The position numbers and the translations under genes are program-made. From Rhodohalobacter sulfatireducens (GTDB lineage Bacteria > Bacteroidota > Rhodothermia > Balneolales > Balneolaceae), in the NCBI RefSeq assembly GCF_022012475.1, contig NZ_JAKLWS010000001.1, forward strand, positions 62,001 to 126,000: 64,000 bases of DNA, given 5' to 3'. Shown here piece after piece: positions 6,677-45,627 of the stretch. The notes beneath the pieces were generated by a model. That model was not told where the DNA came from. It did not search any database and was given only the letters and a program-made list of their open reading frames with translations. Positions within the stretch are counted from its first letter, which is position 1; the number at the start of each line of letters is the position of its first letter.

Positions 6677-8014
6677 CTAAACGGGCCCAAAAGCCAACAT
6701 GGCATCTGCTACTTTTTTGAACCCGGCGATGTTCGCACCTTTCATATAATCGATGTTACCATCATCATCCTCTCCGTGCTCTTTACACTTTTTGTGGATC
6801 TCTTTCATAATCGATTGGAGACGATCATTGACCTCCTCGGCAGACCAACTCATTCGCAGTTCATTCTGCGAAATTTCCAGGCCTGATACGGCTACACCCC
6901 CTGCATTCGAAGCTTTTCCGGGAGCATAAAGTACATCAGAATCTCTCAACAGACGTGTGGCATCCGCACTGCAAGGCATGTTGGCACCTTCTGCAAGCAA
7001 CATCAATCCGTTCTTCAAAAGTGTTTTTGCTGAAGACAGATCAACTTCATTTTGAGTTGCACATGGTAATGCAATATCACATGGTATTGACCATGGAGTT
7101 TCACCCTCCAGGTACTCGCAAGAGAATTCATCTGCATACTCTTTGATCCTTCCGTACTTCACTTCTTTTAATTCTTTTACGAATTCGAATTTTTCCCTGT
7201 CGATTCCCTCTTTGTCATAAATCGTTCCATCTGAATCAGATAAGGTCACAACTTTCGCTCCTAAATCCATCGCTTTTTGACATGCGTACAATGCTACATT
7301 ACCGCTGCCGGAAATCGAAACTTCTTTTTCTTCGAGATCATCGTCAAATTCTTCAAGCATATTTTGAACAAAATAGATGAGCCCGTATCCGGTGGCCTCG
7401 GTCCGTATAAGACTTCCTCCAAAATTGATGTCTTTGCCCGTAATAGTTCCTGTAAAGCGATTCGTTAGTTTTTTATACTGTCCGAAAAGGTAACTGATCT
7501 CCCGTTTACCTACACCGATGTCACCTGCAGGAATATCCGTATCTTCCCCGATGTACCGTTGAAGCTCATCCATCAGGCTGTGACAAAACCGGAAGATTTC
7601 ACTGTCACTTTTTCCCTTCGGATTGAAATCGGAACCTCCTTTTGCACCGCCAATTGGCAGACTTGTGAGTGCGTTCTTAAAAGTCTGCTCAAATCCCAAA
7701 AATTTCAAGATACCTGCGTTTACGGACGGATGAAAACGCAACCCTCCTTTGTATGGACCGATACTATTGTTGAATTGTACCCGCCAGGCCCTGTTTACAT
7801 GTATCTTCTTGTTGTCATCCATCCATGTTACCCGAAATCGTATAATTCGGTCCGGTTCTGTCAATCTCTCCAGGATAGCTGCTTTTTCATACCTTGGCTT
7901 GTCCGCGATATACGGTAAAATATCTTCATAGACTTCTCTCACCGCCTGGTGAAATTCCTTTTCTCCTGCATTGTGTTTTTTTACCGTCTGTAGTACGCGC
8001 TCTAAATCATACAT
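6677..8014 (-). CDS. gdhA: NADP-type glutamate dehydrogenase
   Basis: 445 residues, typical for the hexameric 50-kDa bacterial enzyme. Visible signatures are PYKGGLRFHPSVN, LTSLPIGGAKGGSDFNPKG (catalytic Lys in GGAKGG), GDIGVGKRE and GSGNVALYACQKAMDLGAKVV (Rossmann loop). The C-terminal block has MPCSADA and APGKASNAGGVAVSG. It interconverts 2-oxoglutarate plus ammonia and glutamate in the cytosol. The start is preceded by GAGGGAG on the minus strand. Divergent from the iron-sulfur gene at 8184. Its nearness to a putative ammonia-releasing exported pathway at 9-16 kb is suggestive only. Confidence 0.95.
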   Translation of the reverse strand: MYDLERVLQTVKKHNAGEKEFHQAVREVYEDILPYIADKPRYEKAAILERLTEPDRIIRFRVTWMDDNKKIHVNRAWRVQFNNSIGPYKGGLRFHPSVNAGILKFLGFEQTFKNALTSLPIGGAKGGSDFNPKGKSDSEIFRFCHSLMDELQRYIGEDTDIPAGDIGVGKREISYLFGQYKKLTNRFTGTITGKDINFGGSLIRTEATGYGLIYFVQNMLEEFDDDLEEKEVSISGSGNVALYACQKAMDLGAKVVTLSDSDGTIYDKEGIDREKFEFVKELKEVKYGRIKEYADEFSCEYLEGETPWSIPCDIALPCATQNEVDLSSAKTLLKNGLMLLAEGANMPCSADATRLLRDSDVLYAPGKASNAGGVAVSGLEISQNELRMSWSAEEVNDRLQSIMKEIHKKCKEHGEDDDGNIDYMKGANIAGFKKVADAMLAFGPV

Positions 8015-8999: not shown

Positions 9000-10808
9000 T
9001 TAATCCATGCTAAGTATTGACTCTCTCAATTTATTGACTTCATCTGAAGTAATACTATCTCCTTCACTTCCAAACTCCTGCAAGATATACGATGCAAGGC
9101 CGGCAATTTCTTCATCATCTAAGAAGTCATGCGGCGGCATCTGGATCTCATAATCAGGAGTATTCTGACCCGCTAAAATAACTGTTACCAACGAATCTCT
9201 GTCCTGAATTTTTGTGGATCCCTTAATCGGCGGAAACCGTCCGGCCACACCTTCACCATTTCGCTGGTGACAAGCTGCACAGTACAACTCATAGACCTCC
9301 TGACCGGCAACAGGAACTTCTTTTTGAAGATCGTCTCCCTCCTTGTCGGGGTATCGAATATTACTGGCTGTTTCTTTTATTACTTTCATGTTCGCGAGCT
9401 GTTCTTCTCCGAATGCACTCCTCTCACCTTTAAACATCACTCGCCATATTTTCCCATCTACGGAATCGCTGATATACAACGAACCGTCCGGTCCCACAGC
9501 TAAACCCACGGGCCGATGCTCTGAATCATTGGTGTTTACCACTGGATCTACACCGGTAAATCCATTTGCGAACACGTCCCAGTCTTTGGAAAATTCCCCG
9601 TTCTGATAGGGAATGAATGCTACAAAATACCCTGCCTGCGGATAGGGATTTCGAATCGTCGAACCATGAAAAGCGATAAACGCTCCATTTCTGTAGTATT
9701 CGGGGAACTGGTCGCCCTGGTAGAACTTCAGATCATTCGGTGCAAAGTGGCCCGGAAACCCAACCAGCGGATTATCAAATTCGCTGCATCGTCCGACCTC
9801 ATCTCCATTCCCGCCATACTCCGGTGCAAGCACTTTTCTCTCCCGGAACTGATCGTAAAAACAGTACGGCCACCCGAAGTTTGAACCTTCGGTTACTCGC
9901 CCAAACTCTTCGGCCGGCAGCACGGCATTATCCCATGCTGTAAACAGTTGAGGCCACATGCTGTGAAGATTATCACGTCCATGCTGAACGATGTAAAGTT
10001 CGTTATCAACTGGATTCCAATCCATTGCAACGATGCTTCGAAGGCCGGATGCAAATCGAATACCGGTTGGAGCAACATCCGGATTAGCATCTCTATTTAA
10101 ACTTTCCTGCTGAACCTGGTTAAATTGGTCTGCCCGAAATTTCCATATACCCGCATGATTGTCCAGAATGAGACATGGATCTTTTCCAGGACTTCCCGGA
10201 ATTCGGTTTTGCTCCTGGCATGCATCCGAAGGTGCACCATACGCAGTAAAAAGATTCCCTTCATTGTCAAAAGAGAGTGGTTTTCCAATGTGCTCATGAT
10301 GGCCATGCTCATGATCATCAATCACAATAGTATCACGCCGGGTTGTATCCGGAACCAATTCGTCGGGATTCAGGGGATAGCGAAATACGTAAAGTTGCGT
10401 ACTGTAGTATAGGTATCCGTCGTGAATCTCCATTCCCGTTTCGTAATTACCATGGGTCTGATCCAGGCTGAATGTTTTGATGATGTCGGCTTTACCATCT
10501 CCGGATGTATCTCTAAGTGCAGCAATTCCGCCGGTTTCATATGCGCGTTTAAGCTTCACATAAATATCACCATTCTCATTCACTACAAGGTGACGCGCAG
10601 GTCCCACACTGTCTGCCACCACTACCGCTTCAAAACCAACAGGAAGATCCAGCTCACCATCATTTGGGGCACCGGGAGGGAGTTGTGGGTTTTTGTTAAA
10701 CTGACAGGAAGAGAGGACTATCAACATCAATCCAACAAATACAGATATTGTAATCTGCTCATAAAATCTACTATGATGTAAAAGCTGTTTGTTCAAATAG
10801 ATCCCCAA
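9000..10808 (-). CDS. Exported PQQ-dependent sugar dehydrogenase-type protein with cytochrome c domain
   Basis: 602 residues. The N-terminus has a lipoprotein-like signal (VGLMLIVLSSC, Cys at 35), so the protein is periplasmic or membrane-tethered. Residues about 55-465 form a beta-propeller of the soluble glucose/L-sorbosone dehydrogenase type (LDLPVGFEAVVVAD, GIRFASGLRSI, VQHGRD, GSNFGWPYC). The C-terminal part holds a class I cytochrome c: CAACH at 510-514 and a Met ligand in MPPHDF. Such fusions oxidise sugars or aldehydes with PQQ and pass electrons to their own heme. No ATG lies upstream of the signal: the frame opens with TTG at 10808, and a second TTG at 10796 is possible. Divergent from the SMP-30 gene, which could act on its lactone product. 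Substrate unknown. Confidence 0.85.
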   Translation of the reverse strand: MGIYLNKQLLHHSRFYEQITISVFVGLMLIVLSSCQFNKNPQLPPGAPNDGELDLPVGFEAVVVADSVGPARHLVVNENGDIYVKLKRAYETGGIAALRDTSGDGKADIIKTFSLDQTHGNYETGMEIHDGYLYYSTQLYVFRYPLNPDELVPDTTRRDTIVIDDHEHGHHEHIGKPLSFDNEGNLFTAYGAPSDACQEQNRIPGSPGKDPCLILDNHAGIWKFRADQFNQVQQESLNRDANPDVAPTGIRFASGLRSIVAMDWNPVDNELYIVQHGRDNLHSMWPQLFTAWDNAVLPAEEFGRVTEGSNFGWPYCFYDQFRERKVLAPEYGGNGDEVGRCSEFDNPLVGFPGHFAPNDLKFYQGDQFPEYYRNGAFIAFHGSTIRNPYPQAGYFVAFIPYQNGEFSKDWDVFANGFTGVDPVVNTNDSEHRPVGLAVGPDGSLYISDSVDGKIWRVMFKGERSAFGEEQLANMKVIKETASNIRYPDKEGDDLQKEVPVAGQEVYELYCAACHQRNGEGVAGRFPPIKGSTKIQDRDSLVTVILAGQNTPDYEIQMPPHDFLDDEEIAGLASYILQEFGSEGDSITSDEVNKLRESILSMD

Positions 10809-10957
10809 AAAGTTGCATCAGTATCTTAGCTAATAAATATATAAGTTCGATGAAATATTCTAATAGGATTTTTTAGTGTCATTCTAAGGCTTTGCAATGA
10901 GAAGTTCCCAACATTTCTGGGGAAAAACTTGGTAATCTCTCTGATTGGTTACGATTG

Positions 10958-11008
10958 GAGATTGCGCTAAAGTTATCCCCCACGGGGTTTCACTGCGTTC
11001 GCAATAAC
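10958..11008. repeat. Degenerate palindromic repeat upstream of the SMP-30 gene
   Basis: GAGATTGCG (10959-10967) and the later CGCAATAAC (11000-11008) flank CCCCCACGGGG. This resembles the GAGATTGC...GCAATGAC repeats scattered in intergenic DNA of this group. It lies in the 250-base divergent gap 10809-11059, which otherwise shows no gene. Low confidence because the arms are short and imperfect. Confidence 0.3.
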
Positions 11009-11059
11009 AGATCAGAGACTTATATCCTAAAAGATTTTCGACCTAATCATTAATGTACC

Positions 11060-11977
11060 GTGAACAGACTTAGATTTTTAAAAATAATCACCAGCTCACT
11101 TTTAGCTGCCCCTACCCTCCTTTCAGTACTGCAAAAAAACAATCAAAGCCTGTTTGAAGTTGGTCATTATACAGAGCCGGGTAGTTTTACATCCGGTGCG
11201 GAAGGACCCTCGGTGGATACCCATGGAAATCTCTATGCAGTGAATTACAATCGGCAAGGGACGATTGGAAAAGTTACTATCGATGGAGAAACAACTGTCT
11301 TTCTGGAACTTTCTGACGGCAGCATTGCCAACGGAATTCGATTTAACAGCAAGGGCGAGATGTTTTTGGCGGATTACGTGAATCATAATGTTTTGAAAGT
11401 GGATTTGGATTCAAGGCAGGTTTCCGTATTTGCTCACGAACCAATAATGAATCAGCCCAATGACCTGGCTATTGGAGCCAATGATATTCTGTATGCGAGT
11501 GATCCGAACTGGAGTGAATCTACCGGGCAGCTTTGGCGGATTGATACCGACGGAACAACTACGCTTCTTGAAGACCAGATGGGAACCACAAATGGAATAG
11601 AGGTTAGTACAGATGAATCGAAACTTTACGTGGGCGAATCGGTTCAGCGAAAGGTCTGGCAGTATGATCTTTCCAATGATGGAGAAATCAGCAATAAACG
11701 CCTGTTGATTGAATTCTCAGATTTTGGATTGGATGGAATTCGCTGCGATCAGAAAGGGAACCTATACATCACCCGACATGGAAAAGGTACAGTTGTGATC
11801 GTGTCGCCTGAAGGTAAGATCATTAGAGAAATTGAGATGTTTGAGGGCAAGAGCATTACTAATCTCGCATTTGGTGGCCCCGATGGAAAAACGGTTTACT
11901 GTACAGTGGCTGATATTGGAAATATACAATCCTTCAGAACAGATACACCGGGACGCAGCTGGAATTTGTTTGGATAA
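11060..11977 (+). CDS. Exported SMP-30/gluconolactonase-family protein
   Basis: 305 residues with a GTG start. An ATG nine bases upstream is out of frame and closes after seven codons. Residues 1-22 make a signal peptide (RLRFLKIITSSLLAAPTLL). The remainder is a six-bladed beta-propeller of the SMP-30/LRE type: GPSVDTHGNLYAVN, GIRFNSKGEMFLADY, LAIGANDILYASDPNW, TNGIEVSTDESKLYVGES, GLDGIRCDQKGNLYI. The acidic and Asn metal ligands expected for Ca2+/Zn2+ lactonases are present in these strands. The family hydrolyses aldonolactones to aldonic acids. It is divergent from the PQQ dehydrogenase and in line with RidA, deacetylase and PLP genes, all exported. Confidence 0.82.
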   Translation: MNRLRFLKIITSSLLAAPTLLSVLQKNNQSLFEVGHYTEPGSFTSGAEGPSVDTHGNLYAVNYNRQGTIGKVTIDGETTVFLELSDGSIANGIRFNSKGEMFLADYVNHNVLKVDLDSRQVSVFAHEPIMNQPNDLAIGANDILYASDPNWSESTGQLWRIDTDGTTTLLEDQMGTTNGIEVSTDESKLYVGESVQRKVWQYDLSNDGEISNKRLLIEFSDFGLDGIRCDQKGNLYITRHGKGTVVIVSPEGKIIREIEMFEGKSITNLAFGGPDGKTVYCTVADIGNIQSFRTDTPGRSWNLFG

Positions 11978-12071
11978 GTACGGGTAAATGTAAGGCACAA
12001 GTTGCAAACTTGCGCCAGTTATAGTTACAAATTTACGCCAATATAAGTTTTTTGGGTGGAAAAAGAATTCA

Positions 12072-12113
12072 CGGCTCAGCGAGCCGTGTTACGTAAATCG
12101 GCTCGCTGAGCCG
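12072..12113. repeat. Paired GGCTCAGCGAGCC palindromes
   Basis: CGGCTCAGCGAGCCG (12072-12086) and CGGCTCGCTGAGCCG (12099-12113) are each self-complementary at the GGCTC/GAGCC arms and are exact reverse complements of each other. They can form two small hairpins or one 15-bp stem. The arrangement resembles paired REP (REPIN-type) elements. It lies in the 227-base gap between the SMP-30 and RidA genes. Confidence 0.7.
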
Positions 12114-12204
12114 ATCTTCATTTTGTAAATCAAATCTTGCAGAAGTACATTATACCGAACGAATGCCAAAACCAACATAAATTCAAATAAACAGTTCAAA
12201 GCAA

Positions 12205-12693
12205 ATGGATCTTAACTCTCAAAAAACCACACGAAAATCAGCTATCAAATCAATGTTTAGTGGAATTCTGGCAGCAGGTGCCGGACTTTTCGGAATCTCC
12301 CAGGCAAAAGCTGCAAATACTCAGAATGACAACTCTATCAAAACAATTGCAGATAAAGATCAGCAGGGCGAGGTACCACTGTTTTCAAGCGTAAAAGTTC
12401 ACAACGGTCTTGTATATGTGGCCGGGAAAGGCGAACACGGCGAAGGTGATATCACCGTTCACACAAATTCTGTTTTAGATCAAATTGAGGAAGCCCTTGA
12501 GGGTGCCGGATCATCCATGGAGAAAGTGCTGAAAGTAAACGTGTATTTGCATGACATTCGTGATTATGATGGATTGAATACAGCGTATCGGGGACGTTTC
12601 GGTGATAGCCCTCCGGTTCGAACTACAGTATCCTGCTACGGTGGAATCCCCGGAAACTCACTGGTTGAAATTGACTGTATCGCTACACTTTAA
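12205..12693 (+). CDS. Exported RidA-family protein 1
   Basis: 162 residues. Residues 1-37 are a signal peptide with a basic n-region (TTRKSAIKS), a hydrophobic core (GILAAGAGLFGI) and AKA cleavage; the lone RK pair is Tat-like but not a classical twin arginine. The mature part is a complete RidA/YjgF domain: FSSVKVHNGLVYVAG, DQIEEALEGAGSSMEKVLKVNVYL, then PPVRTTVS with the substrate-binding Arg and VEIDCIA with the conserved C-terminal Glu. RidA proteins hydrolyse reactive enamines/imines made by PLP enzymes, normally in the cytosol; an exported form is unusual. The downstream deacetylase gene starts 19 bases after its stop, so they form an operon. Confidence 0.88.
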   Translation: MDLNSQKTTRKSAIKSMFSGILAAGAGLFGISQAKAANTQNDNSIKTIADKDQQGEVPLFSSVKVHNGLVYVAGKGEHGEGDITVHTNSVLDQIEEALEGAGSSMEKVLKVNVYLHDIRDYDGLNTAYRGRFGDSPPVRTTVSCYGGIPGNSLVEIDCIATL

Positions 12694-12712
12694 TTAATAA
12701 AAATCTTCAATT

Positions 12713-13981
12713 ATGAGCCGTTCACATTCCATGATTCATCCGCAAAAATTCGTTTTGTTATTTATCGGCCTATGCCTGATAATTCCATCCCTGCTATTCG
12801 CCCAAAGTTATGACCTGCTTCTGAAAGATGGTCACGTCATCGATCCTAAAAATGGTATTGACGGGATTTATGATATTGCTATTTCAGAGGGTACCATTGC
12901 AATAGTGCAGGAAGAAATCTCCGAAGCGGATGCTGAAAAAGTTGTTGATGCATCCGGGCTTTATGTAACACCCGGAATAATCGACATGCACAGCCATAAT
13001 TATTATGGTACGGAACCAAACCGTGCTTACAGTAACGGTTTTAATGCCCTCCCGCCGGATGGATTTACATTTCGGTCCGGGGTTACAACCGTAGTAGATG
13101 TGGGCGGCGCCGGATGGAGAAATTTTCAACACTTCAAAAGCCAGGTAATCGACCGGTCTCAAACCCGTATGCTGGCATTCATCAATATCGTTGGAGACGG
13201 AATGAGCGGTGTTCCTGAACAAAACCTGGATGATATGGATCCACGCATGACCTCGATTGTTGCAAATCAACATGAAGAGATTGTGGGAGTAAAAATTGCT
13301 CACTACAACGGCCGGGACTGGGAACCTTATCACCGAACGGTTGAAGCAGCTGAGAGAGCTGATATCCCGGTTATGGTTGATTTTGGAGGTGCTATTCCGC
13401 CGCTTCCTTTAGACAGTTTATTGCATGATGTTCTGCGCCCCGGCGACATTTATACACATGTGTACGGCGGTGGCGTGGAGGTCCGCCAGGCAGTAATTGA
13501 TGAAAATGGAAAATTGAGAGAGGGTATGCTTGAAGCCCAGGAAAATGGCATCATTTATGATGTTGGACACGGCGGCGGGAGTTTCTTTTACAGTGTTGCC
13601 GTTCCTGCAATTGAACAGGGTTTGTGGCCGAATACCATCAGTACTGATATTCATGTCGGCAGCATGAACGACGGTATGAAAGATATGGCAAACCTGATGT
13701 CGAAATTTATGAACATGGGAATGACATTGCAGGAAGTTATTGAAGCCTCCACCTGGAAACCGGCTCAAGTAATAAAGCGTGAGGAGCTCGGTCACCTAAC
13801 AGAAGGGGCAGTAGCAGATATATCGGTTTTTAGCCTCCAGGAAGGTGATTTCAAGTTTCTTGATGCCCGTGAGTTTAGCCTGCCCGGGACTCAAAAATTA
13901 CAACCTGAGTTAACCATTCGCGCCGGCAATGTGGTTTGGGATCTGAATGGGTTAGCTGCGACACCATATGAAGAGGAATGA
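12713..13981 (+). CDS. Exported amidohydrolase/deacetylase, EF_0837/AHA_3915-like
   Basis: 422 residues. A Sec signal peptide is visible (FVLLFIGLCLIIPSLLFAQS, cleavage about residue 31). Then comes the amidohydrolase-superfamily fold: VIDPKNGIDGIYDIAI, the metal motif DMHSHNYYG, GVTTVVDVGGAG, KIAHYNGRDWEPY, VYGGGVEVRQAV, GHGGGSFFY, ISTDIHVGS and the C-terminal EGAVADISVF strand. The resemblance is closest to dihydroorotase-like deacetylases of the EF_0837/AHA_3915 type. In other bacteria these genes neighbour DgaE-type PLP ammonia-lyases, and such a gene is two loci downstream here. It would act in the periplasm, probably removing an acyl group from an N-acylated amino compound; the substrate is inferred, not shown. 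Confidence 0.82.
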   Translation: MSRSHSMIHPQKFVLLFIGLCLIIPSLLFAQSYDLLLKDGHVIDPKNGIDGIYDIAISEGTIAIVQEEISEADAEKVVDASGLYVTPGIIDMHSHNYYGTEPNRAYSNGFNALPPDGFTFRSGVTTVVDVGGAGWRNFQHFKSQVIDRSQTRMLAFINIVGDGMSGVPEQNLDDMDPRMTSIVANQHEEIVGVKIAHYNGRDWEPYHRTVEAAERADIPVMVDFGGAIPPLPLDSLLHDVLRPGDIYTHVYGGGVEVRQAVIDENGKLREGMLEAQENGIIYDVGHGGGSFFYSVAVPAIEQGLWPNTISTDIHVGSMNDGMKDMANLMSKFMNMGMTLQEVIEASTWKPAQVIKREELGHLTEGAVADISVFSLQEGDFKFLDAREFSLPGTQKLQPELTIRAGNVVWDLNGLAATPYEEE

Positions 13982-14071
13982 ATAAATCCCCCTTTGAAAT
14001 AGCTCATTTTTGAACGCGAAACAAAAAAATTAACAGGATCGATTCATGGGATCATTACTGGAACTTTGATA

Positions 14072-14124
14072 GCGCGAGCGTCTCGCTCGTGCTTGAAATT
14101 AGGGCACAAGCGAGACGCTTGCGC
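14072..14124. repeat. REP-like palindrome pair (CGAGCGTCTCGCTCG)
   Basis: Left arm 14072-14092, with core CGAGCGTCTCGCTCG, and right arm 14104-14124, with core CAAGCGAGACGCTTG. Each arm is itself palindromic, and the two are reverse complements apart from two symmetric positions that still pair as G-U in RNA. An 11-base spacer separates them. The sequence type resembles REP elements linked to IS200/IS605-like TnpA_REP proteins, none of which is encoded here. Confidence 0.7.
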
Positions 14125-14189
14125 CATCACTAGTTAGCCACCCCCTACCCCTTCAAAGCGGGATTTTCTAAATTCAAAAATCATTTGAT

Positions 14190-14750
14190 ATGCTAAAAAA
14201 TTTAATCCTTTTAACTCTAATCCCACTTTTTATCATGACATGTGCAAAGACCGATAATCAAACTAACTCCGATAACCTTTATGATTATGATGTAGAGAAA
14301 CGTATTGCAGAGCTGGGAATTGAACTCAGCCCTCCAACCCCGCCGGTAGCCAATTATGTAAAAGCCGTACGAACTGGGAATCTGATTTTTCTCTCCGGTC
14401 ATGGCCCTGACAAACCTGAAGGTGGATTAGTATTTGGACGAGTTGGAACAGATCAGATTACAGTTGAGGAGGCCAAGGAAGCCGCTCGATTGACCGGCAT
14501 CTCACTCATTAATTCATTAAAAGCTGAAATTGGCGATTTGAATAAAGTGAAACGAATTGTAAAAGTATTGGGGATGGTGAATGCCGAACCCACTTTTGGC
14601 GATCATCCACAGATCATCAACGGGTTTTCCGATCTGATGGTAGAAGTGTTCGGCGACCGAGGACGACATGCTCGTTCTGCCATAGGTATGGGATCATTGC
14701 CAAGCAACATACCGGTAGAGATCGAGATGATTGTGGAGGTTGTGGAATAA
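14190..14750 (+). CDS. Exported RidA-family protein 2, putative lipoprotein
   Basis: 186 residues. The N-terminus (MLKNLILLTLIPLFIMTCAK) is a type II-like signal with Cys at 18; Thr at -1 makes the lipobox atypical. The mature domain is RidA-like: RIAELGIELSPPTPPVANYVKAVRTGNLIFLSGHGP, EEAKEAARLTGISLINSLKAE, LNKVKRIVKVLG, GRHARSAIGMGSLP with the conserved Arg, and PVEIEMIVEV with the terminal Glu. It is a divergent subfamily compared with the copy at 12205. The spacing and shared export suggest that both RidA proteins serve the PLP enzyme downstream. Confidence 0.83.
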   Translation: MLKNLILLTLIPLFIMTCAKTDNQTNSDNLYDYDVEKRIAELGIELSPPTPPVANYVKAVRTGNLIFLSGHGPDKPEGGLVFGRVGTDQITVEEAKEAARLTGISLINSLKAEIGDLNKVKRIVKVLGMVNAEPTFGDHPQIINGFSDLMVEVFGDRGRHARSAIGMGSLPSNIPVEIEMIVEVVE

Positions 14751-14754
14751 ATTA

Positions 14755-14884
14755 CCCCTTTGAGGGGAAAAGTGAAATGAGCGTCCAGCGAATGAACTCG
14801 GGGGATGTCACCGCACTGTGAAAACACCCCTCTGAGTTTTTCAAGAACCGTTGAAAAACTCTGTCTCCCCTGAAAGGGAGACAC
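14755..14884. repeat. Cluster of small hairpins in the gap before the PLP gene
   Basis: Three perfect hairpins occur in 130 bases: CCCCT/AGGGG (14755-14759 with 14763-14767), GAGTTTTTCAA/TTGAAAAACTC (14834-14844 with 14851-14861, six-base loop) and TGTCTCCC/GGGAGACA (14862-14869 with 14876-14883). The wording (cccctttgagggg, ctcccctgaaagggag) is typical of intergenic repeat debris in Bacteroidota-like genomes. Confidence 0.6.
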
Positions 14885-14945
14885 TCACTACAAAATCCTC
14901 AACTTTAACCAGAATCGAATAATATTTAATCAAACATATAAAACC

Positions 14946-16163
14946 ATGCTTAACCGACGAACGATGTTAAAAATGCTCGCTACACTGCCATTCATGGGTG
15001 GAGTTGCGGGATCAAATGCGATCCGTAAAGTATCCGGAGAAAAGCTGGCTCGGCCCGGCTACAATCGTGATTTTTTCACGGAATTGGGAGTCAAACCTTT
15101 TATCAATGCATGGGGAACGATTACGGCGAAATCGGGATCTCTGATGCACCCTGAGGTCATCGAAGCGTACAATTATGCCTCTCAACAGTTCGTGGACTTG
15201 AACGAGTTACAGGATAAGGTTGGCGAGCGTATCGCAGAAATGTTAAACTGCGAAGCGGCGATGGTAACGGCAGGTGCTGCTTCAGCCATGACTCTCGGAG
15301 CGGCCGCTTGCATCACGGGAAAAGACCAGGAAAAAATTCGGGCGCTTCCTAATCTTCCGGGCCAACAGTTGGAAGTGATTATCCAGGACACTCATCGGTT
15401 TGGGTACGATCATGCCGTTCGCAACACCGGTGTAAAAATGGTGGAGGTGAATGGTCCAAGGGAGATGGAGGAAGCGATCAACGAGAAAACCGTCATGATG
15501 CTCTTTTTCAATGCAGCGGGGGAGCATAGCGTTAGCCGTGAACAGTTTGTAGAGATAGGACAGAGAAATAATGTACCGACATTTATTGATGCGGCCGCGG
15601 ATGTTCCACCCGTTGAAAATCTTTTTAAATATATTGAGATGGGTTTCGATTTAGTTACGTTTTCCGGCGGAAAAGCGATTCGGGGACCGCAAAGTGCCGG
15701 GTTACTCTTCGGAAGAAAAGATCTCCTAGAAGCGGCACGGTTGAACACGGTTCCTCATAGCAATACCATCGGACGAGGAATGAAAGTGAATAAAGAGGAG
15801 ATCCTGGCGATGATGGTTGCACTTGAAAAATACCTCGAACGCGATCATGAAAAAGATTGGGAGGAATGGGAAAACAGGGTTGCTCTTATTGATGAAGCTG
15901 TAAGTTCTGTTGAATCCGTGGAAACGGATCATTATGTGTTTCCTGTGGCAAATCATGTACCTCACCTCTCCATCAAATGGGACCAGGAGATCATCAACAT
16001 CACACCGCCAAAACTGCGCGAAAACCTGGAAAACGGGTATCCGTCCATTGTTACCTTTGGCGGGGATGAATCGGTTGAGGTCAGCGTATTCATGATGCAA
16101 CAGGAGGAGGTTGGTATTGTAGCCAAGAGATTGAAAGAAGAACTTGAAATGGCCCTGATGTGA
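14946..16163 (+). CDS. Tat-exported SelA/DgaE-like PLP-dependent enzyme
   Basis: 405 residues. NRRTMLKMLATLPFMGG (residues 3-19) is a twin-arginine signal, which fits an enzyme that must fold around its cofactor before export. The rest is a fold-type I PLP domain of the SelA-like group: INAWGTITAKSGS, VGERIAEMLNCEAAMVTAGAASAM, TFIDAAADVPP (D215 for the pyridine nitrogen) and TFSGGKAIRGPQSAGLLFG (K243, Schiff-base Lys). It is closest in layout to D-glucosaminate-6-phosphate ammonia-lyase (DgaE)-type enzymes rather than to true selenocysteine synthase. Expected chemistry is alpha,beta-elimination of ammonia giving an enamine/imine, the kind of product RidA hydrolyses. It is the third gene of the exported set after RidA/deacetylase/RidA. 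Substrate not provable from sequence. Confidence 0.85.
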   Translation: MLNRRTMLKMLATLPFMGGVAGSNAIRKVSGEKLARPGYNRDFFTELGVKPFINAWGTITAKSGSLMHPEVIEAYNYASQQFVDLNELQDKVGERIAEMLNCEAAMVTAGAASAMTLGAAACITGKDQEKIRALPNLPGQQLEVIIQDTHRFGYDHAVRNTGVKMVEVNGPREMEEAINEKTVMMLFFNAAGEHSVSREQFVEIGQRNNVPTFIDAAADVPPVENLFKYIEMGFDLVTFSGGKAIRGPQSAGLLFGRKDLLEAARLNTVPHSNTIGRGMKVNKEEILAMMVALEKYLERDHEKDWEEWENRVALIDEAVSSVESVETDHYVFPVANHVPHLSIKWDQEIINITPPKLRENLENGYPSIVTFGGDESVEVSVFMMQQEEVGIVAKRLKEELEMALM

Positions 16164-44466: not shown

Positions 44467-44619
44467 AATGTATCACCTCTCTCTGTAGTTTGCATCAAAA
44501 ACTCTGTAGTAGGAGTTTCTCTTTAATTGTAATATACTTTTCCATTGTTAAGATTATGTGTATTCACTAGTATAATTTCCTGTTGTCATCTCTTTGAAAT
44601 TGCCCAAAATCAACCCCCA

Positions 44620-45627
44620 ATGCCTTTTAAACGCCACATTATACTATTAGCCACCTTTTCAGTTCTCTTTCTTTTTTTCAATAGCTGTTCGACTACTAAT
44701 CTACCTGAAAATACTCACTCAAAAGGCAATTCAGATTTCAGGATAGTAGGATACTACTCACTCGAAGAAGCTCTATCTGTTCATCCTGCAGATGTACCTT
44801 TTCATCTTGTAACCCATATCAATCTCTGGTTTTTAAATCCCGATTCACTGGGAAACTATGATCTGGATCTCTCAGGTTTATCTGATTTTGTGGAAGAAGC
44901 CAATGATAACAATGTAAAAGTACTGTTTTCTATTGGTGGAGGTGGCAATTACCCCCATTACGACCATCTGCTTACTGAAGATTATAGATCTGAATTGATC
45001 GATAACCTGGTTGATGAAGTTCTTAAATATAACATTGACGGTGTAGATGTAGATCTTGAGGGAAGTGCCATCAACGAAAATTATGAACCGTTTGTGGTTG
45101 AGCTTGGAAAAGAACTTCGAAACCACGATAAGATGATGACATCCGCTATTGCAGTTTACTATAAAGACCAACTTACAGATCGAGCCCTTGCCCAGTACGA
45201 TTTTATGAACATCATGGTTTACGATCGTACGGGGCCATGGAGACCGGGCCAACCCGGCCCGCACTCTACCTACCAAAATGCCGTAGATGATCTTGTATAC
45301 TTCAAATCTGAGAGAAATCTTCCGGAAGAAAAAATTGTATTGGGAGTCCCATTTTACGGTTATGCGTTCAGTACTCAACCAAATTCACCGCCGATGAGTA
45401 TGAATTATGATGAGATAACCGCCAGCTTTTCCGGTTCTGAGTGGGTGGATGAGTGGGAGATGACGGGCGGATATACCCTTTACTACAACGGTATCCCTAC
45501 CATCATCAATAAAACCGTTTTAGCGAAAAAGGAAGCGTCCGGGATTATGATCTGGCAGCTCCTTGGGGATACAGAAGATGAAAAATCACTGCTAAAAACG
45601 ATTAATGAGGTAGCCTACTCGTACTAA
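44620..45627 (+). CDS. GH18 family glycosyl hydrolase lipoprotein
   Basis: 335 residues from the ATG at 44620. An earlier in-frame start at 44545 adds 25 residues lacking a signal. Residues 1-23 are a lipoprotein signal with lipobox FFNSC (C23). The GH18 catalytic motif DGVDVDLEG is intact (D140, D143, D145 and general acid E147). Supporting strands are VKVLFSIGGGG, FMNIMVYD, LGVPFYGYAF and GIMIWQLLGD. It hydrolyses beta-1,4-linked N-acetylglucosamine polymers, so chitin or peptidoglycan-like glycans are likely targets, at the cell surface or periplasm. Confidence 0.93.
   Translation: MPFKRHIILLATFSVLFLFFNSCSTTNLPENTHSKGNSDFRIVGYYSLEEALSVHPADVPFHLVTHINLWFLNPDSLGNYDLDLSGLSDFVEEANDNNVKVLFSIGGGGNYPHYDHLLTEDYRSELIDNLVDEVLKYNIDGVDVDLEGSAINENYEPFVVELGKELRNHDKMMTSAIAVYYKDQLTDRALAQYDFMNIMVYDRTGPWRPGQPGPHSTYQNAVDDLVYFKSERNLPEEKIVLGVPFYGYAFSTQPNSPPMSMNYDEITASFSGSEWVDEWEMTGGYTLYYNGIPTIINKTVLAKKEASGIMIWQLLGDTEDEKSLLKTINEVAYSY

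Follow-up and report, generated by a model that had tools for sequence, protein, structure and literature searches.

Six neighbouring genes of the Balneolaceae bacterium Rhodohalobacter sulfatireducens, located within the 64,000-nucleotide stretch of DNA analyzed here (the window; contig NZ_JAKLWS010000001.1, positions 62,001 to 126,000), encode a GSDH-type dehydrogenase with its own cytochrome c, an SMP-30 lactonase, two RidA proteins (RidA1 and RidA2), an amidohydrolase, and a pyridoxal phosphate (PLP) enzyme, each beginning with an export-type N-terminus. Our analysis leads us to lean toward the view that the six genes represent one form of a gene set conserved in Bacteroidota/Balneolota, by which an N-acetylated amino sugar would be broken down oxidatively in the periplasm without phosphorylation. 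Our computations cover gene identity, co-occurrence, clustering, N-terminal motifs, and predicted folds, and the linkage and the export motifs stand on firm computational ground; from these we infer the chemistry, the substrate, and the actual location of the proteins. The pathway is thus a hypothesis, built in every reaction and substrate on several converging lines of evidence. An earlier note on the window had described the six genes, and all six open reading frames (ORFs) were recovered where it had placed them, with Pfam matches to the same broad families.

Conservation and linkage of the gene set

Genome-wide searches (for the PLP enzyme, the amidohydrolase, RraA-family proteins, the TIGR01437 model, and the PLP enzyme in two orders) each capped how many first-look candidates were scored in a genome. 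At this depth, the PLP enzyme occurred in 6 of 296 genomes of the phylum (E 1e-20 or better), and an independent search for the amidohydrolase (E 1e-40 or better; at most six candidates scored per genome) returned the identical six genomes, spread over four families. The earlier note had proposed checking the conservation of the gene set; these two genes proved to be conserved together. A search with the TIGR01437 model recovered the same six of 296 genomes, with none of the 296 above its cut-off, and all six PLP carriers were among the 17 of 296 that encode an exported-type RraA-family protein. When the PLP enzyme was sought in two orders (centre genome included), 17 of 241 and 2 of 246 genomes contained it. 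Cultured organisms among the carriers include Fodinibius sediminis, Zunongwangia mangrovi, and Leeuwenhoekiella aestuarii.

Neighbourhoods were sampled at 32 PLP loci from 28 genomes, the window included, with partners sought within 10 kb and labelled by phmmer score (Pfam was run on samples of them); L018, which shares a contig with L028, and L019, a near copy, were left out of the counts. An amidohydrolase and at least one RidA protein were each found near 28 of the 32 loci, followed by GSDH (22), lactonase, SusC, and SusD (16 each), CBM9-like and RraA-family proteins (12 each), SBF transporters (9), and GH20 enzymes (2), while MR/MLE-family proteins were found near none; GSDH or a second GSDH-like protein (GSDH2) was present at 23. 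All four loci lacking an amidohydrolase (L020, L021, L022, and L027) lie at contig ends, and RidA was missing from L020, L022, L027, and L129. Absent partners mean little at L084, which is poorly ORF-called, or at L083, a contig of only 4.6 kb. Fisher and hypergeometric figures were computed but, as they take no account of relatedness, do not serve as proof here.

Export signals

The N-termini of the six window proteins were assessed by eye. The GSDH protein carries an LSSC lipobox and RidA2 a TC lipobox, the amidohydrolase has a Sec-type signal, and the PLP enzyme has the RR motif of the twin-arginine translocation (Tat) pathway, for which TatC is encoded in the host genome. RidA1 begins with an RK variant that is Tat- or Sec-like, and SMP-30 has a short hydrophobic stretch that is the weakest signal of the six. 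On this visual reading, the earlier claim that the whole set bears export signals holds, least clearly for SMP-30.

The Tat motif of the PLP enzyme is conserved. RR occurs within the first 60 residues of all 42 full-length PLP copies (window copy included), compared to 38 of 223 unlabelled long ORFs from the same loci, and a tighter Tat-like pattern is present in 40 of 42 copies versus 11 of 223 background ORFs. These counts left out three short PLP pieces, two from L022 (one with RK rather than RR) and one from L033. Among RidA1 copies, 27 of 29 have RR, the window copy being one of the two with RK, and a Chloroflexi PLP relative (L026), retained as an outgroup only, has no signal.

We counted only the RR motif, against its own background, because a crude signal script proved weak for Sec and lipoprotein signals, calling 29 of 63 control ORFs positive. 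This script called no signal in 2 of 13 intact amidohydrolases, 1 of 7 GSDH proteins, 4 of 30 RraA proteins, and 1 of 22 MR/MLE proteins; viewed by eye, these were mostly over-extended or cut ORFs, and two had a plain hydrophobic start. That the N-terminal stretches have no export role, or that the genes are mere neighbours sharing no pathway, gains something from signals judged by eye and by so permissive a script, but it is highly improbable given the rarity of Tat calls among controls (2 of 63), the invariant RR of the PLP enzymes, and the restriction of the PLP enzyme and amidohydrolase to the same few genomes. The earlier note had looked to signal-less or unclustered orthologues as evidence against its proposal; our check for them, in which the RR motif was universal among full-length PLP copies and the amidohydrolase was retained at most loci, did not refute it.

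A probable third branch of the DgaE/Cap15 family

The PLP enzyme had been described as SelA/DgaE-like. Membership in DgaE was dropped, since its scores fall under both curated cut-offs (TIGR01437, 191 versus 385 bits; NF047797, 136 versus 600 bits), though the broad family stood. Lys243 and Asp215 are invariant in 17 aligned PLP enzymes, and Lys243 aligns with the lysine of the DgaE SGxK motif. The closest structure to the predicted model (mean pLDDT 87.4) was Cap15 (8t7j; Z 40.2, rmsd 1.9, 347 aligned residues, 27% identity), then DgaE (7lc0; Z 38.4, rmsd 2.4, 351 aligned, 26% identity), with SelA well below both (Z 26.4). Sequence comparison, in contrast, slightly favours DgaE over Cap15, whether by profile (221 versus 201 bits) or single sequence (E 9.7e-33 versus 2.6e-27). 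The motifs DVPPxENL and GPQSxG mark the exported PLP enzymes and are found in neither DgaE nor Cap15 in the alignment. Within the family, the exported enzymes are best placed as a third branch.

The DgaE operon has an EF_0837-type neighbour. The window enzyme resembles DgaE (D-glucosaminate-6-phosphate ammonia-lyase) in fold, PLP lysine, and an amidohydrolase partner of the same broad family, and differs from it in its sub-cut-off scores, its Tat signal, and the two motifs of the exported branch. Cap15, a PLP- and O2-dependent enzyme of capuramycin synthesis, shares the fold but is biosynthetic and lacks both motifs, and we know of no exported form of it. One alternative is that the same exported set contains a Cap15-like enzyme, which would use O2 to decarboxylate a beta-hydroxy-alpha-amino acid oxidatively; the resulting carboxamide would then be hydrolyzed by the amidohydrolase. 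This reading draws on the top structural match and on Cap15 chemistry as described (PMC7497351), yet we consider it quite improbable: sequence searches favour DgaE, the recurrence of RidA fits enamine release, and the RraA partner suggests a 2-keto acid rather than an amide.

Longer forms of the PLP enzyme were called at L022 (8147-9772), L031 (10734-12455), and L034 (9168-10847), with 541, 573, and 559 amino acids as called, one start being over-extended. At L136 (6195-7789), a D-serine-dehydratase-like PLP protein and a signal-less RidA adjoin the exported set. Elsewhere in the R. sulfatireducens genome (L035, contig C44, 9868-11745), a lipoprotein-type RidA adjoins a protein of the class-V aminotransferase family whose N-terminus is signal-like; the two may be another exported PLP/RidA pair.

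Proposed pathway for amino sugar breakdown

In the pathway that we favour, the GSDH-cytochrome c lipoprotein would oxidize the sugar at C1 and pass electrons to the respiratory chain, the lactone would be opened by SMP-30 (or a PF10282 lactonase in other loci), and the acetyl group would be taken off by the amidohydrolase. The Tat-exported PLP enzyme would eliminate water from the resulting 2-amino-3-hydroxy acid, releasing an enamine/imine whose hydrolysis to a 2-keto-3-deoxy acid and ammonia would be accelerated by RidA. The 2-keto-3-deoxy acid may then be cleaved or dehydrated by an exported RraA-family enzyme, which adjoins the set at 12 of 32 loci and is encoded elsewhere in the R. sulfatireducens genome, and an SBF/BASS symporter would bring in the product, such as pyruvate. 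Since a PLP ammonia lyase needs a 2-amino-3-hydroxy acid and an aldolase acting after it needs a 4-hydroxyl, the predicted intermediate is a 2-amino-2-deoxy-aldonate; a GSDH-cytochrome c protein and a lactonase would turn an aldose into an aldonate, and the presence of a deacetylase fits an N-acetylated sugar.

Both domains of the GSDH protein scored above their Pfam cut-offs (GSDH, PF07995, 38.9 bits; Cytochrom_C, 42.9 bits), and C510, C513, and H514 are invariant in eight homologues. Its model (mean pLDDT 69.7), built from an eight-sequence alignment and poor in the cytochrome part, best matched an AA12 pyrroloquinoline quinone (PQQ) pyranose dehydrogenase (Z 32.0, rmsd 3.2, 358 aligned), followed by bacterial PQQ aldose dehydrogenases (Z 25.8-29.6) and the Acinetobacter sGDH (Z 23.0-23.8), with the first unrelated propeller at Z 22.6. 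His171 and His173 are invariant in the same number of homologues, and the AA12 alignment does not single out which matches the catalytic His. The protein shares the propeller fold of AA12 and soluble PQQ aldose dehydrogenases, as judged from the model, and differs from them in its fused cytochrome c and lipoprotein signal.

In SMP-30, E48, N134, N178, and D225, which we take to be metal and substrate residues, are invariant in seven homologues. The lactonase is of the SMP-30 type in nine loci and of the PF10282 type in seven others (Pfam was run on one of the seven), and the occurrence of two distinct exported lactonase families in one place argues for a lactone step. The amidohydrolase scored above the cut-off of NF006689 (PRK09237 amidohydrolase/deacetylase; 423 versus 371 bits), and H93, H95, K194, H249, and D312 are invariant in 13 homologues. 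Membership in EF_0837, as the earlier note had it, was not retained (TIGR03583, 220 versus 432 bits). Both RidA proteins passed the Pfam cut-off for the RidA/YjgF family and have its conserved arginine, presumably in the active site: it was present in the PPVR motif in 10 of 10 RidA1 rows and in the HAR motif in 9 of 9 RidA2 rows, as judged by eye; the aligner sets the two groups one column apart.

The PDB relatives of the amidohydrolase are 8je0 and 2ogj, and we assume that 2ogj-type enzymes act on N-acetyl amino acids and acetyl esters. This relationship, together with the absence of GSDH and lactonase from part of the loci, is compatible with an alternative in which N-acylated beta-hydroxy amino acids or small peptides are degraded and GSDH and the lactonase serve another sugar, being linked to the set as their substrates arrive together. 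We regard this as unlikely, as two exported lactonase families alternate within the set and GSDH or GSDH2 is so frequent, along with CBM9-like proteins in 12 loci and GH20 in two. At L136, SusD and RidA1 flank genes for a GH20 hexosaminidase and a fucosidase, all in one orientation; at L139 a GH20 gene closes the gene run beside GSDH.

The chemistry may also be as proposed but directed at another amino sugar or amino sugar acid (e.g., galactosamine, mannosamine, muramate, or an aminouronate). Such a sub-case shares ground with the favoured pathway, so their probabilities do not sum to one. Two or three PLP-family ORFs at 12 of 32 loci, and two or three amidohydrolase ORFs at 8 of 32 (split genes were counted twice in L022 and L127), could serve several epimers, and L022 encodes a GlcNAc 2-epimerase-family protein with an RR N-terminus; the L136 fucosidase accompanying GH20 points the same way. 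None of the neighbours that were annotated (a part of the total), however, is specific for any of these sugars, and we consider this sub-case rather unlikely.

Table 1 Coordinates of the six-gene set in the window and of amidohydrolases from other loci with Tyr in the DVGHGG motif.
Feature	Position	Strand	Basis
GSDH-type beta-propeller with C-terminal cytochrome c, exported lipoprotein (predicted)	9000-10808	-	TTG start; Pfam
SMP-30/gluconolactonase-type lactonase (SMP-30/SGL), exported (predicted)	11060-11977	+	GTG start; Pfam SGL 140 bits
RidA family protein 1 (RidA1), exported (predicted)	12205-12693	+	PF01042 66 bits
Amidohydrolase, exported, predicted N-deacetylase	12713-13981	+	NF006689 423 bits
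RidA family protein 2 (RidA2), RidA/YjgF, PF14588 type, exported lipoprotein (predicted)	14190-14750	+	PF14588 62 bits, PF01042 44.7 bits
Fold-type I PLP enzyme, SelA/DgaE/Cap15 family, Tat-exported (predicted), predicted 2-amino-aldonate ammonia lyase	14946-16163	+	PF03841 44 bits
Amidohydrolases with Tyr in DVGHGG motif	L031:3487-4743, L033:4647-5945, L033:9470-10708, L034:14414-15685		

In the window, RidA1, the amidohydrolase, RidA2, and the PLP enzyme form a run (12205-16163) on the plus strand, which also carries SMP-30 ahead of them; the GSDH-cytochrome c gene diverges from these five (Table 1). Two intergenic inverted-repeat pairs lie within the gene set (12072-12113 and 14070-14126; 15 and about 23 bases), and neither motif recurs elsewhere in the window.

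A possible exported RraA end piece

The RraA family takes its name from an RNase regulator. Among the RraA proteins beside PLP genes, five of seven were called Sec or lipoprotein by the crude script, and the remaining two were called as over-extended ORFs whose hydrophobic stretch lies further inside. R182 and D183 are shared by all 13 aligned RraA proteins. The 23 RraA rows (of 26) that have no PLP neighbour fall in 21 loci, of which 17 contain a Tat MR/MLE-family protein and 10 an SBF symporter; amidohydrolase, RidA, and GSDH were found in none of the 21 at the thresholds used. All 21 full-length MR/MLE proteins carry RR (two short pieces were left out), and the PDB relatives of the one protein searched include putative dehydratases and sugar-acid dehydratases. 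The single SBF protein scanned best matched PanS, under its cut-off (241 versus 400 bits).

The frequency of MR/MLE proteins at RraA loci without a PLP gene, as opposed to their absence from PLP loci, suggests that the PLP set replaces enzymes expected to make 2-keto-3-deoxy acids. Since exported RraA pairs with either dehydratase-like enzymes or the PLP set, the two partners would, on the simplest view, yield products of one kind, namely a 2-keto-3-deoxy acid. HMG/CHA aldolase, a cytosolic enzyme, belongs to the same family as this exported partner. Another relative, FlDet of a Flavobacterium, dehydrates and decarboxylates a 2-keto-3-deoxy sugar acid, the hexarate (PMC8563752); FlDet has 237 residues, whereas the exported RraA proteins, putative enzymes, have about 310 and signal-like N-termini.

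Two RraA-family loci of the R. sulfatireducens genome lie apart from the window. One (L041, contig C22, 5509-10443) is a second exported sugar-acid module, with genes for an SBF symporter, an exported RraA, and a pair of Tat MR/MLE dehydratase-like proteins in a single run. The other (L042, contig C81, 9514-10413) lies outside both modules and encodes an RraA-family protein that is more distant and has a signal-like N-terminus. At L102 (5795-12345), an RraA-MR/MLE pair lies near an ORF (10849-12345) that by eye resembles L-arabinose isomerase, hinting at pentose-derived acids.

Comparison with the ong pathway

A described counterpart is the ong pathway of Pseudoalteromonas prydzensis, in which genes for a deacetylase, a PLP enzyme, and a RidA protein are each required for growth on N-acetylglucosaminate, with the role of RidA left open (PMC9537276). 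As in our proposed pathway, deacetylation is followed by PLP-dependent ammonia release to 2-keto-3-deoxygluconate (KDG), with no phosphorylation ahead of deamination; in contrast, OngB and OngC are predicted to be cytoplasmic, KDG is phosphorylated by KdgK, and N-acetylglucosaminate is produced by lytic polysaccharide monooxygenase action rather than by a sugar dehydrogenase (PMC9537276). The ong enzymes appear to be of other families than the exported set. The placement of a RidA gene beside a deacetylase and a PLP enzyme is common to both, recurring as it does at most PLP loci. We found no exported version of the pathway described in open-licence literature, though one may be published outside it.

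Weighing the proposed pathway

Several observations weigh against the pathway as proposed. GSDH is absent from 10 of the 32 loci (one of which has GSDH2, while L022 has another GSDH-family protein) and a lactonase from 16, with contig ends cutting some of these loci. The PLP enzyme scores below the DgaE cut-offs, and its model matches Cap15, an O2-dependent decarboxylating enzyme, slightly better than DgaE. In 4 of 13 aligned amidohydrolases, the His expected as a metal ligand in the DVGHGG motif is a Tyr. The two GH20 occurrences among 32 loci could arise by chance when density alone is considered (0.38 expected, P 0.055). RraA, SBF, and SusC/SusD are not beside the gene set in the window, and the two signal-bearing RraA-family proteins of the R. 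sulfatireducens genome are on other contigs, the closer relative lying among dehydratase-like genes. Finally, FlDet is inactive on KDG and keeps the initial Met at its native N-terminus, which excludes export by way of a cleaved signal (PMC8563752).

Taken together, these data partly support the interpretation in the earlier note. The order it proposed (oxidation, lactone opening, deacylation, ammonia elimination, and RidA action) gains strength from the lactonase swap, the GH20 genes of two loci, and an exported RraA possibly acting next, while the substrate is unproven and the oxygenase Cap15 shares the fold family. Two genes it had cited in support were dropped as evidence: glutamate dehydrogenase is present (6677-8014) but no homologue of it was labelled in the relatives' loci that were listed, and the GH18 gene (44545-45627) lies about 28 kb from the gene set.

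Implications

To our knowledge, when sugars are broken down, C-C cleavage and PLP-dependent ammonia release take place in the cytosol. A broader possibility, which we put forward only tentatively, is a complete, phosphate-free, Entner-Doudoroff-like periplasmic pathway in which amino sugars would be oxidized, deacetylated, deaminated, and split outside the cytoplasm, electrons would go straight to cytochrome c, and the cell would take up nothing but pyruvate-like acids and ammonia. Exported RraA and the symporter would then be a shared end piece, supplied by Tat-exported sugar-acid dehydratases in some cases and by the Tat-exported PLP/RidA/amidohydrolase set in others. If the proposed pathway is correct, a Tat-exported PLP enzyme and exported RidA would make the periplasm the site of reactive enamine chemistry and of its repair, giving RidA a testable extracytoplasmic role and providing a function for the exported RraA branch and for the recurring SusC/SusD loci.

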